48,919 bases of DNA from Cryomorphaceae bacterium (lineage in GTDB: Bacteria > Bacteroidota > Bacteroidia > Flavobacteriales > Schleiferiaceae). Below are positions 107-43,982 of this stretch, piece after piece. The stretch's first letter is position 1. Each line of letters starts with the position of its first letter. The stretch covers positions 1 through 48,919 of the forward strand of contig JAFIEY010000144.1 in assembly GCA_020832345.1 (NCBI GenBank), written 5' to 3'. The notes beneath the pieces are model-generated. The model did no database searches, was not told the DNA's origin, and worked only from the letters and a program-made list of their open reading frames with translations. A program made the position numbers and the translations under genes.

Positions 107-359
107 TTTAGTTAGGTTCGCTATATGTGTAATATTGTTTATTACTAAATATTTTTATATTCCTACTTATTAATTACCTTAAATAAAATGCTTATTAACA
201 TGGAATTGTGGAATAAGAACTGAAAATGTGACTTCAGTAATCTTTCTAGTTCCTTGGGTTTTTACAAATTTTTTGAAAACACCAATAGCATTGCAAAGAT
301 AAACATTTCAAACGATACTTTTAGGTCATTCAGGTGATAAAATTTTAGGCAACTGTATA

Positions 360-450
360 TTTAAACCGAAGCTAACCATTTGTTAGTGAAAACCCAAAAA
401 TCTTCCTTGTTGAAAAATTTTGGCAAAAAGGGACTTTTTGGAGTGGACTC
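360..450 (+). repeat. Truncated family-1 palindromic repeat (copy E)
   Basis: The right two thirds of the 142-bp family-1 element are recognisable: the CTAAC/GTTAG central hairpin, the run ending in CAAAAATCT, TTTTGGCA and the terminal stretch ending GACTC. The left end expected near 309 has no clear similarity to other copies, so the copy is truncated or strongly diverged. Its right terminus carries the TTTTTGGAG variant shared with the copy at 30939. No target duplication can be assigned because the left border is lost. Confidence 0.7.
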
Positions 451-459
451 AATAATTTA

Positions 460-3145: not shown

Positions 3146-3287
3146 GAGTCAACTCTAAAAAGGATGATTTCAATCAAAATCGACGCGGAGGGGATTTTTG
3201 AACCGGAGCTAACCAGCTGTTAGTGAGGATTCAAAAATCTACCGACAAGGAAGATTTTGGCAGAAAGGGACTTTTTAGAGCAGACTC
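3146..3287 (+). repeat. Family-1 palindromic repeat (copy C, 142 bp)
   Basis: Complete 142-bp copy running from GAGTCAACTCTAAAAAGG to TTTTTAGAGCAGACTC, flanked by exact 6-bp duplications AAAATT at 3140-3145 and 3288-3293. It differs from the copy at 20720 at only about two positions, so it is recent. It is inserted 13 bp upstream of the TTG start of the receptor pseudogene and separates that gene from its upstream sequence. Confidence 0.93.
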
Positions 3288-9571: not shown

Positions 9572-10409
9572 ATGAAAATTTGTAAGCAATTAAAAAACTC
9601 CCTGATTCCTGGTATTGTTTTTTTAACTTTAATAACCACCGGCTGCCGTGAACCCGAAACATTTTCCGGAGTGGTTGCCGTAACCGGACAAGTGGTAGAT
9701 GATGTTTCCGGTAGTCCTGTGCCGGGGACAAAAATTTTTCTCACGCCAAGGTTTACGAAATACTTTAGTGGCACATATTCATTTCACGATGACCAGCCAG
9801 TAATGGCCCTGACCGATAGCTTGGGGTATTTTTCAATTCAAGTTGAGGTTGTGGATGTAGCCCAGGTTATGCTTTCAACACAATTAATTTATGAGTCCAC
9901 TCTAAAAAGGATGATTTCAATCAAAATCGACGCGGAGGGGATTTTTGAACCGCAGCTAACCCGTTGTTAGTGAGGATTCAAAAATCTACCGACAAGGAAG
10001 ATTTTGGCAGAAAGGGACTTTTTAGAGCAGACTCATTTATAGTGACCCATTACATAGAAAATACCTAACAAGAACGTTTGAGCACCCCTATTATGATGCG
10101 GGCAACTACAATACAAAAATAAGGTTAGCTCGCAGTGGCGTAGTTAAAGTAAACATCAAAAATCCAGGTTCTCCCCTGCCACTACTTAGAGTTCGAAGTT
10201 TAAGAAGTTCTGTGGTATCTAATAACTTTGTATCCACCGATACTACTGTTTATCTAATCATAGGTGAAATTAACCATAGAAACGGAAACAACGATGGGGG
10301 TGAGGTGAGTGTTACTTGGCGAAATGATGCAGGAGCGGTAAATAAATTAACCGAGGTAGCCCAATATATAGAATGGGACACGACCAATTTAAATTTCATC
10401 CTGCATTAA
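9572..10409 (+). pseudogene. Lipoprotein with CarboxypepD-like domain, interrupted by repeat
   Basis: The gene begins 2 bp after pyk with a lipoprotein signal (lipobox ITTGC), followed by a segment like the carboxypeptidase regulatory fold (VTGQVVDDVSGSPVPGTKIFL). After residue 107 (Tyr, codon 9890-9892) a 142-bp family-1 repeat is inserted and the frame ends in it. Removing 9893-10040 (element plus one ATTTAT copy) joins codon 107 directly to AGT at 10041. It then reads on without interruption to the stop at 10409, giving a 229-residue protein. Base 10212 is a GTG inside this second half, not a separate gene. The function of the intact form is unknown. Confidence 0.88.
9893..10034 (+). repeat. 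Family-1 palindromic repeat (copy A, 142 bp) inside a gene
   Basis: Complete element with ends GAGTCCACTCTAAAAAGG and TTTTTAGAGCAGACTC. Exact 6-bp target duplications ATTTAT lie at 9887-9892 and 10035-10040. The central hairpin loop (CCGTT between CTAAC and GTTAG) differs from the copies at 3146 and 20720; the rest is almost identical. It interrupts the lipoprotein gene. Confidence 0.95.
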
Positions 10410-20081: not shown

Positions 20082-21144
20082 ATGAAAAAGTCAATACTTT
20101 ATTTGATATGCTTCATGAGCATAACCGCCATTGTTGTTTCGGCTTGCAAAATGACCTACAAACCAGAACAGGTTCAGTACGCGGTACATCATGACCGTGC
20201 CGACATTCAGGAGGGAAAACGCCTGACAATGATGATGTGTGGCGTTTGCCATTACGACAACGAAACCAAACAGCTAACCGGTGTTCAAATGGTCGATGTT
20301 CCGGATGTATTAGGCACCATAATCGCCAGTAACATTACCCAGCATCCGACAGCTGGTATTGGCAACTACACCGACGCTGAGCTCGCTTACGTGGTTAGAA
20401 CAGGCGTCGCCCGCGATGGAAGATTGATCCCATTCATGCAGAAACCCAATATTGCCGACGAAGATTTGAGAAACATCATTGCCTTTCTGCGCTCCGATGA
20501 CCCACTTGTTCAGCCCTCAGAAATTAACCCGGGAAACACCAAGTATTCCACGGTGGGCAAAATGGCAATAGGTTCTTCAAAACCCTATAGCTGGACAAAT
20601 GGTGAAATAAAAAAACCCAATCCTTCGGATAAATTGGCCTTCGGAAAATACATGGTCGATAACCTGGCCTGTTACGATTGCCATTCCAAAAGCTTTGCCA
20701 AGTTAAACAAGGTAAATATGAGTCCACTCTAAAAAGGATGATTTCAATCAAAATCGACGCGGAGGGGATTTTTGAACCGGAGCTAACCAGCTGTTAGTGA
20801 GGATTCAAAAATCTACCGACAAGGAATATTTTGGCAGAAAGGGACTTTTTAGAGCAGACTCAAATATTGAAAAATCAAAAGGCTTTATGGGCGGTGGAAA
20901 TAAAATGATGGACAAAGCTGGCAATAAAGTCTTAACCCCCAATCTTACCCCGCACGAAACGGGAATCGGGAACTGGACTGAAGCTGAATTTGCCAGAACC
21001 ATAACCAATGGCATTAACAAAGACATGAACCCAGTAACCTACCCCATGCCTTTATATCCGGAACTCACCGAAACAGAAATTTCTGCCATTTTCGCATATT
21101 TGCAGTCCATTCCTCCCATCAAAAACGAAGTGAAAAAGAAGTGA
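20082..21144 (+). pseudogene. Diheme cytochrome c, interrupted by family-1 repeat
   Basis: Intact length would be 304 residues. The N-terminus has a lipoprotein-type signal (VVSAC), then two class I cytochrome domains with heme motifs CGVCH and CYDCH. The axial-ligand region is shown by the LTPNLTPHETGIGNWTEAEFA stretch, cut at this point from the second domain. A 142-bp repeat is inserted at 20720 and breaks the frame inside the second domain. Deleting 20720-20867 (element plus one AAATAT) joins KVN to IEKSKGFMGGG in frame, and the reading then runs to the stop at 21144. Diheme cytochromes of this kind pass electrons in the periplasm from a dehydrogenase; no such dehydrogenase is visible here. 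Confidence 0.92.
20720..20861 (+). repeat. Family-1 palindromic repeat (copy B, 142 bp) inside a gene
   Basis: Complete element, nearly identical to the copy at 3146, flanked by exact AAATAT duplications (20714-20719 and 20862-20867). It interrupts the second heme domain of the diheme cytochrome gene. Element plus duplication adds 148 bp, which is not a multiple of three, so the insertion shifts the frame as well as adding stop codons. Confidence 0.96.
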
Positions 21145-21482
21145 AAACCGCAACCCTAATTACACTGCTCTTTTCCGTTTGGCTAACCCATCGTATTCCA
21201 CAACAAAAGTCACCAACCGAATCGGTTTCGCGAATGGATGCGGGAAAAGCTGTGTATGAAGCTTTTGCTTGTCATAGTTGCCATGGCGATGACGGTGCCA
21301 TGCTCGGTGATTTGACACGTGCAGGTGAAAAATATTCCGATGAAGAAATGATCAAATACATCAAGAATCCTCGCGCTTTTGACAACCGACAAATGCCGGT
21401 TTATGAAGGAGTTATCCCGGATAAAGATTTTGATGATTTGATTTGGTATATTCGGTATTTGGGCGAAAAAACCAAGCAATAA
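21141..21482 (+). CDS. Small monoheme cytochrome c
   Basis: 113-residue exported protein with a short signal peptide and one class I heme motif (CHSCH, after AVYEAFA). The sixth ligand Met is probably in RQMPVYEG. The start is a GTG overlapping the stop of the diheme cytochrome gene (GTGA), which implies translational coupling. Because the upstream gene is broken by a repeat, expression of this gene may be reduced even though its own frame is intact. It probably works in the same periplasmic electron route as the diheme cytochrome. Confidence 0.88.
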   Translation: MKTATLITLLFSVWLTHRIPQQKSPTESVSRMDAGKAVYEAFACHSCHGDDGAMLGDLTRAGEKYSDEEMIKYIKNPRAFDNRQMPVYEGVIPDKDFDDLIWYIRYLGEKTKQ

Positions 21483-30938: not shown

Positions 30939-31079
30939 GAGTCCAATCCAAAAAGGATGTTTTCAATCAAAATTGACGCGGAGGGGATTTTTGAACCGGA
31001 TCTAACTATTTGTTAGTGAGAATTCAAAAATCTATCGACAAGAAAGATTTTGGCAGAAAGGGACTTTTTGGAGCAGACT
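30939..31079 (+). repeat. Family-1 palindromic repeat (copy D, 141 bp, diverged)
   Basis: Full-length copy with about fifteen differences from the copies at 3146 and 20720 and apparent loss of the final base. Target duplication TATTAT is present at 30933-30938 and 31080-31085. Both termini have TCCAAAAAG instead of TCTAAAAAG, so the inverted repeats stay complementary; the truncated copy at 360 shows the same change in its right end. It lies in the upstream region of the dksA-like gene. Confidence 0.92.
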
Positions 31080-31095
31080 TATTATTAAAAATTGA

Positions 31096-31185: not shown

Positions 31186-31572
31186 ATGACAGAAGAAAAA
31201 ACCCGGTTCAGTGATGCGGAATTGCAAGATTTTCGCAATTTGATTTTACAAAAAATTGAAAAGGCTGAAAAAGACCTTTCCCTCTTGCGCGAATCGTTTT
31301 CCAACGATAAAAACAACGGCACAGATGATACCTCGCCAACTTTTAAAGCATTTGAGGAAGGTTCAGAAACCATGAATAAAGAAGCCAACGCCCAGCTGGC
31401 CATCCGTCAGGAAAAATTTATTCGCGATTTGAAAAACGCCCTAATCCGCATTGAAAACAAAACCTATGGTATTTGTCGCGTTACGGGAAAACTCATTCGC
31501 AAAGAAAGACTAATGATGGTTCCTCACGCTACTTTGAGCATTGAGGCCAAACAAGGAAAAACAAGTAAATAG
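31186..31572 (+). CDS. DksA/TraR-family regulator
   Basis: 128 residues with a coiled-coil N-terminal half (ILQKIEKAEKDLSLLRESF) and the C-terminal YGICRVTGKL region of the DksA/TraR fold. DksA binds the RNA polymerase secondary channel and alters promoter choice during starvation. Only one of the four usual zinc cysteines remains (Cys97), with the PHATLSIEAK tail found in Bacteroidota members, so the fold is probably zinc-free. The ATG at 31186 is chosen because it begins MTEEKTRFSD; the frame opens 19 codons earlier. A family-1 repeat lies upstream, a family-2 repeat starts at its stop codon, and lspA, its usual neighbour, follows. Confidence 0.88.
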   Translation: MTEEKTRFSDAELQDFRNLILQKIEKAEKDLSLLRESFSNDKNNGTDDTSPTFKAFEEGSETMNKEANAQLAIRQEKFIRDLKNALIRIENKTYGICRVTGKLIRKERLMMVPHATLSIEAKQGKTSK

Positions 31573-31749
31573 TGTCTGTCTATAAAGTTCGATAGCTGCG
31601 TTATGATTGCCCTTCCCGAAGGTTTTAGGGTTCGGTTGAAAAAGGTCATTTACTTCCGTATATTGACTGTTTTTCCCCGAAATCTGACGAGGCCGCAAGT
31701 CTTGCTCTTGAACTATCTAGCCTAGCCACTTGACTTTATGGACAAGCTC
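31572..31749 (+). repeat. Family-2 palindromic repeat (copy 2, 178 bp) at the dksA-like stop codon
   Basis: Runs from GTGTCTGTCTATAAAG to TATGGACAAGCTC, flanked by exact TAAATA duplications (31566-31571 and 31750-31755). The stop TAG of the dksA-like gene is made of the last TA of the left duplication plus the first G of the element. In the uninterrupted sequence the base after TAAATA is also G, so the same stop existed before insertion. It carries the internal module of about 26 bp (including CCCTTCCCGAAGG) absent from the short copies. Confidence 0.95.
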
Positions 31750-34393: not shown

Positions 34394-35881
34394 GTGAAAA
34401 AATTACCCATGTCATCAGTTGTATTTCGGTATTTGCCGGTATTGATTGCCCTTACCTTATCCGTATTGGCTTGCCGAAGAGGAGATAACTTTGCAGAGTC
34501 AGGCGTAAAACTCACTTTCTCTGCCGACACGATATATCTCGACACGGTGTTTTCTACCGTGGGTTCATCTACGCGGGTACTTAAAGTATTTAACCCTTCC
34601 TCGGATGCCGTCAACATCGACCAAATATTTTTGGGAAGGGGACAACAATCCTTTTACCGACTAAACATCAACGGAAACTCTGCCAAATCGGATACCGATG
34701 TGGAAATTTTGCCCCGCGACAGCATGTATATTTTTATCGAAATAACCGGAAATACACAGGCACACCCAGATCCCATTTACGAGGATTCTATCATTTTCAT
34801 CAATAAAGGTGAAACCCAGTGGGTCAACCTGGTTACCCTAGTGCAGGATGCGCACTTTATTTACCCCACCCGATACTTTACCGATTCTGAAATCAATTAC
34901 AGCGTTTTTCCTTGCGACACCACTTTTAACAGTCACAAACCCGTGGTCATTTACGGATATGCCGTAGTAGATGCCAATTGCGAACTCATCATTCAGGATG
35001 GTGCACAATTTCATTTTCACAAAAATTCCGGACTTTGGGTTTTTAATGGTGGTAGTTTAAAAGTAAACCCCGGCGGTGTAATCGATTACGACAATCCGGT
35101 GGTTTTTCAAGGGGATCGTCTCGAACCTTTTTACAAAGAAATTCCCGGTCAATGGGGCGGAGCTTTGGGCGGAATTTATATCATGGGCAATAGCGTCAAT
35201 AATATCATCAATAATGCGGTGATTAAAAACGGTACCATTGGACTAGTTGCAGACAGTACCATAGCCGCAAATCCAAATTTACACATCACCAATACCCGAT
35301 TTTACAATTTTTCCCGAGCTGGGATTTTTGGTGGATACGGCAACTTTGAAGCGGAAAACGTGGTGGCAGCAAATTGCGGTTTATACACCTTTTATGCCTT
35401 GGGCGGAAGGTACTCTTTTATTCATTCAACTTTTGCCAATTACTGGAATCAATCTTCACGAAGCACACCGGCAATCGGATTGTTTAATTTTTTTGAAACG
35501 CCGGACAACACCTTTGAAGTCCGGGACATTTCAAAGGCATATTTTGGCAATTGTATCATTTACGGTTCAAACGTCAATGAGCTGGGGATAAACCAATTTC
35601 CGGGCACAAATCTGGAATACACCTTTAACCGTTGTATATTAAAAATTCATCCCGATACGGCGGAAAGACCTTTTGACATTACCAATAGCCAAAAGTTTCA
35701 ACAACCCATCGTAAATCAGAATCCAGATTTTATCGATCCACTGGTCAACGATTACCAATTGGAATCCACTTCACCGGCCATTGGCACAGGAAATACCGAT
35801 GGCACAAATGTGTTTTTTGATATTAAAGGTGAATCCCGAACACCTTTGCCCGATATAGGCGCTTATCAGTTTAAAAACTAA
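34394..35881 (+). CDS. Large lipoprotein, probably beta-helical
   Basis: 495 residues. A lipoprotein signal (TLSVLAC) precedes a beta-sandwich-like part (FSADTIYLDTVFSTVGSST, a family feature of many Bacteroidota surface lipoproteins). A long repetitive region follows in which short strands with Asn/Gly turns recur (for example INNAVIKNGTIGLV, LHITNTRFYNFSRAG), characteristic of right-handed parallel beta-helix folds. It has no catalytic signature. A GTG at 34394 is the likely start. The stop TAA at 35879-35881 is part of the target duplication of the repeat that follows. Function unknown. Confidence 0.75.
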   Translation: MKKLPMSSVVFRYLPVLIALTLSVLACRRGDNFAESGVKLTFSADTIYLDTVFSTVGSSTRVLKVFNPSSDAVNIDQIFLGRGQQSFYRLNINGNSAKSDTDVEILPRDSMYIFIEITGNTQAHPDPIYEDSIIFINKGETQWVNLVTLVQDAHFIYPTRYFTDSEINYSVFPCDTTFNSHKPVVIYGYAVVDANCELIIQDGAQFHFHKNSGLWVFNGGSLKVNPGGVIDYDNPVVFQGDRLEPFYKEIPGQWGGALGGIYIMGNSVNNIINNAVIKNGTIGLVADSTIAANPNLHITNTRFYNFSRAGIFGGYGNFEAENVVAANCGLYTFYALGGRYSFIHSTFANYWNQSSRSTPAIGLFNFFETPDNTFEVRDISKAYFGNCIIYGSNVNELGINQFPGTNLEYTFNRCILKIHPDTAERPFDITNSQKFQQPIVNQNPDFIDPLVNDYQLESTSPAIGTGNTDGTNVFFDIKGESRTPLPDIGAYQFKN

Positions 35882-35884
35882 TTA

Positions 35885-36065
35885 GTGGCTGTCTATAAAG
35901 TCCGATAGCTTCGTTATGCCTGCCCTTACCGAAGGTTTTAGGGCTCAGTTGAATATCCAGTCATTTACTTTAGTAAACTCCTTGATATTCCCCGTTATCT
36001 ATCGGGTTCGCAAGCCTCGCTCTCGAACTTTCTAGTTCAGCCAATGACACATTATGGATAAATTC
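35885..36065 (+). repeat. Family-2 palindromic repeat (copy 3, 181 bp) between two convergent stops
   Basis: Runs from GTGGCTGTCTATAAAG to TATGGATAAATTC with flanking TAATTA at 35879-35884 and 36066-36071. In the original sequence the single TAATTA plus the preceding C held both the TAA of the lipoprotein gene and the TAG of the enoyl-CoA hydratase gene, which overlapped. The element split them, and both proteins keep their stop. The right inverted repeat is partly decayed. Confidence 0.93.
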
Positions 36066-36841
36066 TAATTACCCTTAAATGCAGGTTTTCTCTTGGCCAA
36101 AAAAGCGGATGTTCCCTCTTTAAAATCTTCAGAACCAAAACACTGTCCAAAATGCGCAATCTCCTTTTTCAAACCTTCAGATTGGGGATGTTCATATCCG
36201 GCACGTACTGCTTCCAGTGCATGGCGAATGGCGGTAGGGGATTGAACAATCATTTTTCCGGCCAATTTCTTTGCCTCTTCGAGTAGGGTTTCCTGGTCAT
36301 AAATGTGGTTTACGAGGCCCCATTTTAAAGCTTCTTCCGCTGACATCATTCCCGCAGTGGTGATGATTTCCATCGCCTTTCCCTTTCCCACAAGCTGGGC
36401 AAGACGCTGAGTGCCGCCATATCCGGGGATTAAACCAAGGCTTACCTCCGGCAAACCCAATCTGGCATTAGGGGATGCAATGCGAACATGACAGCTCATC
36501 GCCAATTCAAGACCACCTCCCAGGGCAAAACCATTTACCGCCGCAATGACGGGTTTGGGCATTTGCTCCACAAAACTAAATAGCAAATCCTGTCCGCGTT
36601 GGGCGAGTTCCCTTCCACCGTTTACATCGAGATTAGCGAGTTCGGCAATATCGGCACCGGCCACAAAGGCTTTGGTTCCACTACCGGTGATGATAACCGC
36701 ACGAATATCTTTATCGTCTTTTACTTCTCTTAATTGAGCATTTAGACTTTCAATGGTTTCACTGTTAAGGGCGTTCAACTTGTCGGGGCGGTTCACTGTA
36801 ATTACCGCAATGTGATTTTCTTTTTCTAAAGTACTAAGCAT
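36065..36841 (-). CDS. Enoyl-CoA hydratase/isomerase family protein
   Basis: 258 residues of the crotonase superfamily. The CoA-binding and oxyanion segments IRAVIITGSGTKAFVAGADI and NGFALGGGLELAMSC are clear. The two glutamates characteristic of hydratases are present, one in GGGLELAM and one in LGLPEVSLGLIP, so it probably hydrates enoyl-CoA thioesters in fatty acid degradation. It lies 9 bp after a sensor kinase gene. Its stop codon TAG uses the last base of the family-2 repeat plus the first two bases of the target duplication. Genes of dissimilar function share this apparent operon. Confidence 0.92.
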   Translation of the reverse strand: MLSTLEKENHIAVITVNRPDKLNALNSETIESLNAQLREVKDDKDIRAVIITGSGTKAFVAGADIAELANLDVNGGRELAQRGQDLLFSFVEQMPKPVIAAVNGFALGGGLELAMSCHVRIASPNARLGLPEVSLGLIPGYGGTQRLAQLVGKGKAMEIITTAGMMSAEEALKWGLVNHIYDQETLLEEAKKLAGKMIVQSPTAIRHALEAVRAGYEHPQSEGLKKEIAHFGQCFGSEDFKEGTSAFLAKRKPAFKGN

Positions 36842-42478: not shown

Positions 42479-42506
42479 GTGATGGGGCGTATCGACCAAT
42501 TAATTA

Positions 42507-42661
42507 GTGTCTGTCTATAAAGTCCGATAGCTTCGTTATGCTCAGTTGAATATCCAGTCATTTACTTTAGTAAACTCCTTGATATTCCCCGATATTCTCG
42601 GGGTCGCAAGCCTCGCTCTCGAACTTTCTAGCCTAGCCACTATGACTTTATGGACAGGCTC
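42507..42661 (+). repeat. Family-2 palindromic repeat (copy 4, 155 bp) beside the ahcY stop
   Basis: Best preserved short copy, from GTGTCTGTCTATAAAGTC to GACTTTATGGACAGGCTC, with exact TAATTA duplications at 42501-42506 and 42662-42667. The right duplication ends one base before the ahcY stop codon (42671-42669, minus strand). Its two ends can form an 18-position stem with fifteen standard pairs, two wobble pairs and one mismatch. It lacks the internal module of about 26 bp. Internal TTTAC/GTAAA and CCCCG/CGGGG hairpins are also visible. Confidence 0.95.
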
Positions 42662-42668
42662 TAATTAA

Positions 42669-43982
42669 TCAATAACGATAGTATTCTGGTTTGAAAGGTC
42701 CTGTTTGCTCTACACCAATGTATTCAGCTTGCTCTTTGCTCAAAGTTTCGAGTTCAACACCGATTTTGTTCAAGTGCAAGGCAGCCACTTTTTCGTCGAG
42801 ATGTTTGGGCAGGGTGTAAACCTCGTTTTTGTATTTGTCGGTATTGTTCCACAACTCAATTTGTGCCAATACCTGATTGGTAAACGAGTTGCTCATGACA
42901 AACGACGGGTGACCAGTAGCACATCCCAAGTTGACCAATCGGCCTTGGGCAAGCAAGAGGATGTCTTTTCCATCGATGGTATATTTGTCAACCTGGGGCT
43001 TGATTTCCACGTGGCTGTCTGAATGATTGTTCAACCAGGCAACATCTATTTCGTTGTCGAAGTGGCCGATATTACAAACGATGGCTTTATCTTTCATCAT
43101 ACGGAAATGACGTTCGTTTACGATATCGCGGTTTCCGGTAGCGGTAACTACAATGTCTGCCTCCACAACGGCATTGTCCATGCGTTTTACGGCATATCCG
43201 TCCATGGCAGCTTGTAGGGCGCAAATTGGGTCAATTTCGGTTACGATAACCCTTGCGCCAGCTCCGCGAAGGGATGCGGCTGTTCCTTTACCCACATCGC
43301 CATAACCGGCTACAACGGCGACCTTTCCGGCCATCATCACATCGGTTGCACGGCGAATGGCGTCCACAGCAGATTCCTTACATCCGTATTTGTTGTCAAA
43401 TTTAGATTTGGTTACTGAATCGTTTACGTTGATGGCCGGCATGGGAAGCGTTCCCTTTTTCATGCGTTCGTACAAGCGGTGAACCCCTGTCGTCGTTTCT
43501 TCCGAAAGTCCTTTTATTCCTTTTGTCAATTCGGGATAGCGGTCAAACACCATATTGGTCAAGTCGCCACCATCGTCGAGAATCATGTTGAGGGCTTTGC
43601 GTTCCTCGCCAAAGAAAAGCGTTTGTTCGATACACCAATCAAATTCCTCTTCGGTCATGCCTTTCCAGGCGTAAACGGGAATACCCGCAGCGGCGATTGC
43701 AGCGGCAGCCTGATCTTGGGTGGAGTAAATATTGCAGGATGACCAAGTGACGTCGGCACCGAGTTCAACTAAGGTTTCAATCAAAACCGCCGTTTGAATG
43801 GTCATGTGTAAACAACCGGCAATTCGGGCGCCTTTTAAGGGTTTTTCTTTGCCGTATTCTTCGCGCAATGCCATCAGACCGGGCATTTCAGCTTCGGCCA
43901 ATTCAATTTCTTTTCTTCCCCAATCGGCCAAAGAAATATCTTTTACCTTATATGGGATGTAGTTTTCTACTTTTGTGCTCAT
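42669..43982 (-). CDS. ahcY: Adenosylhomocysteinase
   Basis: 437 residues. Splits S-adenosylhomocysteine to homocysteine and adenosine in the methyl cycle. The NAD-binding motif [15 protein letters not shown] is complete, with the active-site stretches [10 protein letters not shown] and [16 protein letters not shown], and the C-terminal [10 protein letters not shown] tail that inserts into the neighbouring subunit. The ATG at 43982 is chosen; a TTG precedes it directly. A divergent PPTase gene lies upstream, 68 bp away, leaving no room for a SAH riboswitch. Confidence 0.97.

Follow-up and report, generated by a model that had tools for sequence, protein, structure and literature searches.

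A diheme cytochrome c gene in a Schleiferiaceae genome very probably interrupted by a 142-bp MITE of a large repeat family

Correia elements of Neisseria are palindromic MITEs of about 100 to 155 bp that occur in hundreds of copies and in size classes; they are flanked by a TA duplication and their ends are different from those of the element described here. REP and REPIN sequences are short palindromic repeats found, as here, in hundreds of mostly extragenic copies, and REPs are associated with a Y1 transposase and are not known to make a target duplication. MITECca01 of Cardinium is about 240 bp long and is present in 169 copies in a genome that also contains its IS982-family parent, according to its description (PMC9769881). 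Our search of the literature found no paper on the element that we report below.

In the window, by which we mean the whole stretch of 48,919 nucleotides that was analysed, a diheme cytochrome c frame opens at position 20082 on the forward strand and encodes 212 residues (20082-20719), including a lipoprotein-type signal and the haem motifs CGVCH and CYDCH, before it enters a 142-bp repeat and terminates at a TAA (20730-20732), giving a product of 216 residues. The 3' part of the gene (20868-21144, forward strand) encodes 92 residues and contains the conserved motif YPMPLYP, which probably corresponds to the region of the second axial methionine. When positions 20720-20867 are omitted, i.e., 148 bp composed of the 142-bp element and one 6-bp duplication, an empty-site frame of 305 codons is obtained, whose only stop is the terminal one; it encodes 304 residues and reads KLNKVN-IEKSKGFMGGGNK across the junction, the codon of the I straddling it. 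A sequence-only reading of this DNA had stated that the frame stops inside the repeat, that deletion of the 148 bp makes KVN meet IEKSKG with no residue lost or gained and reopens 92 codons, and that the gene overlaps the following cytochrome gene as GTGA, and each of these statements agrees with what we observed. The GTGA lies at 21141-21144, where the stop of the diheme gene is combined with the GTG start of a monohaem cytochrome c gene (21141-21482, forward strand), whose translation, according to the sequence-only reading, may suffer as well.

The assignment of the broken gene to the c-type diheme cytochromes is based on two CXXCH motifs, CGVCH and CYDCH, located in cytochrome c domains, and an intact paralogue matches Pfam PF00034 twice. 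The 216-residue product keeps both motifs and its second haem domain stops 11 residues past CYDCH. A Pfam search of the cut-off piece gave no match, whereas two cytochrome c matches are obtained with intact relatives, and an internal GTG frame covering this piece (20797-21144, 115 residues) displays neither a CXXCH motif nor an obvious signal. Annotators should be aware that the frames of 216 and 115 residues are fragments of one gene. The closest solved structures in the PDB, distant and of low similarity, are cytochrome subunits of quinone-type dehydrogenases.

The interrupting element (20720-20861, forward strand) runs from GAGTCCACTCTAAAAAG to CTTTTTAGAGCAGACTC, forms an imperfect palindrome along its whole length, and is bordered on the left (20714-20719) and on the right (20862-20867) by the same 6 bp, AAATAT. 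Since many contigs of the assembly begin or end within copies of this repeat, indicating that such repeats confuse the assembler, a copy could have been misplaced in the gene. However, a false join of this kind would bring together different genes through the repeat and leave no duplication, whereas here one gene supplies both flanks, nothing is lost or gained when they are joined, and a true 6-bp duplication borders the insert; we thus consider an assembly artefact highly unlikely.

The element belongs to a family with many dispersed copies. The end pattern GAGTCYRCTCYAAAAAG, searched in the 4.03-Mb genome with at most two mismatches, gave 1027 matches versus 9 for the reversed control, which amounts to about 500 elements, and a core pattern gave 157 matches with at most three mismatches versus 0 for its control. 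The pattern GAGTCYRCTCYAAAAAG is found at both ends in inverted orientation, as terminal inverted repeats, and the elements with these common ends fall into size classes of 142, 136, 131, 125, 84, and 55 bp, all devoid of a transposase gene. These classes come from 445,835 bases that were walked and from 276,415 more, the latter picked for listed ends so that the density there is biased upwards. Among the unique copies with both flanks, an exact 6-bp duplication was observed in 81 of 161, and one with at most one mismatch in 103 of 161, versus a chance baseline of 1.4% for the flanks of different copies; the 58 of 161 copies with at least two mismatches in the would-be duplication count against a MITE. 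In an earlier set of 78, the 6-bp target site starts with A in 45 of the 50 exact cases and ends with T in 43 of them. Judged by their sequence, the ends, the size classes, and the 6-bp duplications are MITE anatomy, putatively moved by a transposase that duplicates 6 bp. Head-to-tail pairs of elements were also seen in stretches L024, L075, L087, and L096; the 6-bp duplication between them is seemingly shared, and they look as if one element had inserted at the border of another already in place.

Within the window, a 156-nt stretch has five occurrences; together with the core count and the folding scores given below, this shows that the repeat is no product of chance. A second 142-bp copy (9893-10034, forward strand, duplication ATTTAT) splits a lipoprotein-like frame of 229 residues (9572-10409) into 107 and 122 residues, the first part giving a weak CarboxypepD_reg match. 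A homologue search with this frame in 88 genomes returned the frame itself and one weak match, so that its interruption is judged from frame continuity alone. The sequence-only reading mentioned neither this second split frame nor the genome-wide MITE family. Another 142-bp copy (3146-3287, forward strand, duplication AAAATT) is not deep in a frame, a more diverged one (30939-31080, forward strand, 91%) lies outside long frames, and a degenerate copy (303-458, forward strand, 62% to the reference copy) has one intact end at 434-450. Another dispersed repeat family, with ends AGTGKCTGTCTATAAAGT and ACTTTATGGACAGGCTCT, is present in the window at 31560-31749, 35873-36071, 42495-42669, and, in reverse, 452-618; ends like these were also seen in other stretches, e.g., L126, L135, and L170.

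Copies located inside genes are scarce. With frames of 100 codons or more and a minimum depth of 20 codons as the criterion, only 13 of the 161 copies are internal, versus 79-82% of 2000 random positions, and this scarcity is expected if gene-breaking elements are lost. Only 2 of the 161 copies, the one in the cytochrome gene and the one in frame 9572-10409, have an exact duplication and lie in a frame of at least 200 codons with 40 codons or more to the left and to the right; the other eleven in-frame copies are in short frames, close to one of the ends of long frames, or without a clear duplication. Both deep insertions are found in the window, despite the rarity of such insertions in the set of copies examined. 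The genes flanking 114 elements are in tandem for 49, divergent for 25, and convergent for 25, with 2 elements in a frame and 13 at edges; the respective intergenic DNA amounts to 44 kb, 15 kb, and 12 kb for tandem, divergent, and convergent pairs, and we draw no conclusion from this comparison. Many elements appear to follow a stop codon at a distance of 0-30 bp, some of them immediately (L121-L140, L161-L180). A terminator function was considered and rejected, a simple scan having detected no terminator-like site at the element.

The palindrome gives folding z scores of -5.9 as RNA and -4.9 as DNA, and this strong fold prompted us to consider a function at the RNA level. The transcript would fold into a single long hairpin in which the two junctions come close to each other, and the frame is otherwise undamaged, so the insert might be spliced out of the RNA or hopped over by the ribosome, the gene being still expressed. 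Yet at the gathering score the window has no hit to an Rfam family, self-splicing introns and other known structured RNAs included, and among 19 aligned copies changes on both sides concern only 6 of the 43 predicted pairs, the frequent ones being in the terminal repeat; we rejected an RNA-level function on these two results. In addition, the copies avoid genes, which would be needless if they were harmless in RNA, and removal or bypass of the insert at the RNA or translation level appears extremely unlikely.

The same palindrome, placed between 6-bp direct repeats, raises the idea of a reversible switch in which replication slippage would remove it precisely and at a useful rate, the population containing both broken and intact alleles. 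Its loss would restore the frame exactly, and precise loss of palindromes between direct repeats is reported in E. coli in the study PMC5576700. The cases described there combine long inverted repeats with direct repeats of 20-30 bp, and excision rose with repeat length, while the direct repeat measures only 6 bp here. Exact restoration upon excision is shared by all insertions that carry a clean duplication, and since most copies lie outside frames, there is no sign that they are generally used as switches. We therefore regard such a switch as very improbable. If the population were mixed after all, the locus would offer a natural case for measuring precise palindrome loss between very short repeats.

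Intact homologues give the empty site of the insertion and bear on its age. With the N-terminal part of the cytochrome, matches were obtained in 11 of 40 genomes, its own genome counted, and none in the congeners G003 and G004. The empty-site frame is 70% identical to an uninterrupted paralogue of its own genome (contig C31, locus L114), 68% and 61% to homologues of the congeners G001 and G002, and 37% to that of G013, from another genus. In all four comparisons, the alignment is gap-free over the junction with no extra residues, so that the insert is not protein; the reading from sequence had named homologues carrying the 49-residue gap as genuine protein as its refutation, and no such protein is seen in the paralogue, G001, G002, or G013. 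These homologous genes without the insert thus serve as empty sites, although they represent a paralogue and homologues from other species rather than the same allele. A diheme cytochrome gene followed by a monohaem one is also found in C31, G001, and G002; in these homologous pairs the GTGA overlap is absent, the two frames as listed being 8 to 41 bp apart.

Conservation is similar in the two halves of the broken gene, which share 68% and 73% identity with the paralogue, no further stop or frameshift is present, and 135 inner bases of the cytochrome element are identical to another copy. The insertion is probably recent, judged by these three observations, which support the earlier claims of a gene otherwise free of decay and of a recent break, a mixed population having been named there as the other possibility. 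A variant base of the element at window position 20827 is common to other copies and is consequently uninformative on the age of this insertion.

Concerning an autonomous partner, the genome contains six DDE_Tnp_1 genes, none flanked by matching ends, and it is devoid of DDE_Tnp_1_6, these being the two families searched. The copy in L115, tried as a transposase partner, was found to be a MITE of its own, located close to an ISAs1-like gene, and the ends of the IS1634-like gene in L116 are different; ISAs1 and IS1634 are names that we assume from the look of the proteins. A pair of ends 2849 bp apart on contig C29, resembling an autonomous element, was resolved into separate MITEs. Within 722 kb, one contig end excepted, the good ends that have no partner belong to truncated MITEs. 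Contigs C47 (L169:12168-12298) and C97 (L197) have ends made of an identical 131 bases, which start with GAGCCCACTCTAAAAAGTCCCC and show a tip (GAGCCCACTCTAAAAAG) similar to that of the MITE; the sequence flanking these bases differs between the two contigs, and they are not extended into a MITE. From its sequence, this shared contig end may be the end, possibly the left one, of a multi-copy insertion sequence and candidate autonomous partner whose body is unassembled or unbinned; it is our best lead to the partner and not proof. The 131 bp gave a match at E <= 0.01 in 169 of 395 genomes of the order, and those among the matches listed outside the own genome are short, partial, and AT-rich (best 1.4e-6), and were judged to be due to chance.

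The distribution of the element was then considered in other genomes. In the family, 19 of 88 genomes contain ends at one mismatch or less, most of them with one to three matches, which may be chance; at this threshold the own genome has 886, G009 25, G003 10, G004 6, and G001 and G002 none. The own genome measures 4.03 Mb and carries about 500 elements versus none to a handful in the congeners G001-G004, of 2.3-2.6 Mb. The exact 33-base core pattern was found across 84,980 species in 16 stretches, 15 of the Schleiferiaceae MAG PBR18_bin01 and 1 of the Flavobacteriales MAG DLM2.Bin87. In viral contigs, neither the core pattern nor the contig-end pattern had a match, two end-pattern matches being inside a phage gene and without a good partner end, and no match was found in plasmids. 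G009, of another genus of the Schleiferiaceae, contains diverged 142- and 55-bp versions, several of them with 6-bp duplications. We noticed that these (L141-L152) have the same two lengths with altered ends (CCGAAAAG), as if the sizes were fixed across genera. A still-active and very successful hairpin transposon, with 142- and 55-bp forms fixed in length across genera and in-gene copies acting as reversible off-switches, which the hairpin would cause to be lost precisely between the 6-bp repeats and which would make the cytochrome phase-variable, seems very unlikely to us.

We conclude that the cytochrome gene was very probably broken by insertion of a 142-bp non-autonomous MITE by a transposase encoded elsewhere. 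This transposase would have moved the MITE into the AT-rich site AAATAT, and the insertion would have duplicated these 6 bp on either side. The insert of 148 bp (1 mod 3) shifts the frame and leads to the TAA within five codons, leaving a product of 216 residues in which the secretion signal and the two CXXCH motifs are retained, while the remainder of the second haem domain is missing and the last 92 codons are cut off. The short product is presumably non-functional, and the intact paralogue pair of the own genome, 70% identical, could soften the cost. A transposase with matching ends would exist in the cell, its body being missing from the assembly, and the insertion is likely recent. The element family is new and the mechanism is known, making this a clear but ordinary gene breakage.

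The locus provides a clean example of a MITE breaking a cytochrome gene, in which the duplication and uninterrupted homologues are both visible, and the Schleiferiaceae have a new and large MITE family of roughly 500 copies. The clear 6-bp duplications of the element set it apart from REP and REPIN sequences, for which target duplication is not known. Like MITECca01, as far as the latter is described in PMC9769881, it is a short transposase-less element of a Bacteroidota genome that is mostly intergenic and seldom inactivates protein genes, MITECca01 being described as the most abundant mobile element; judged on that description, the element here differs in being shorter, in having about three times more copies, and in that its parent was not found.
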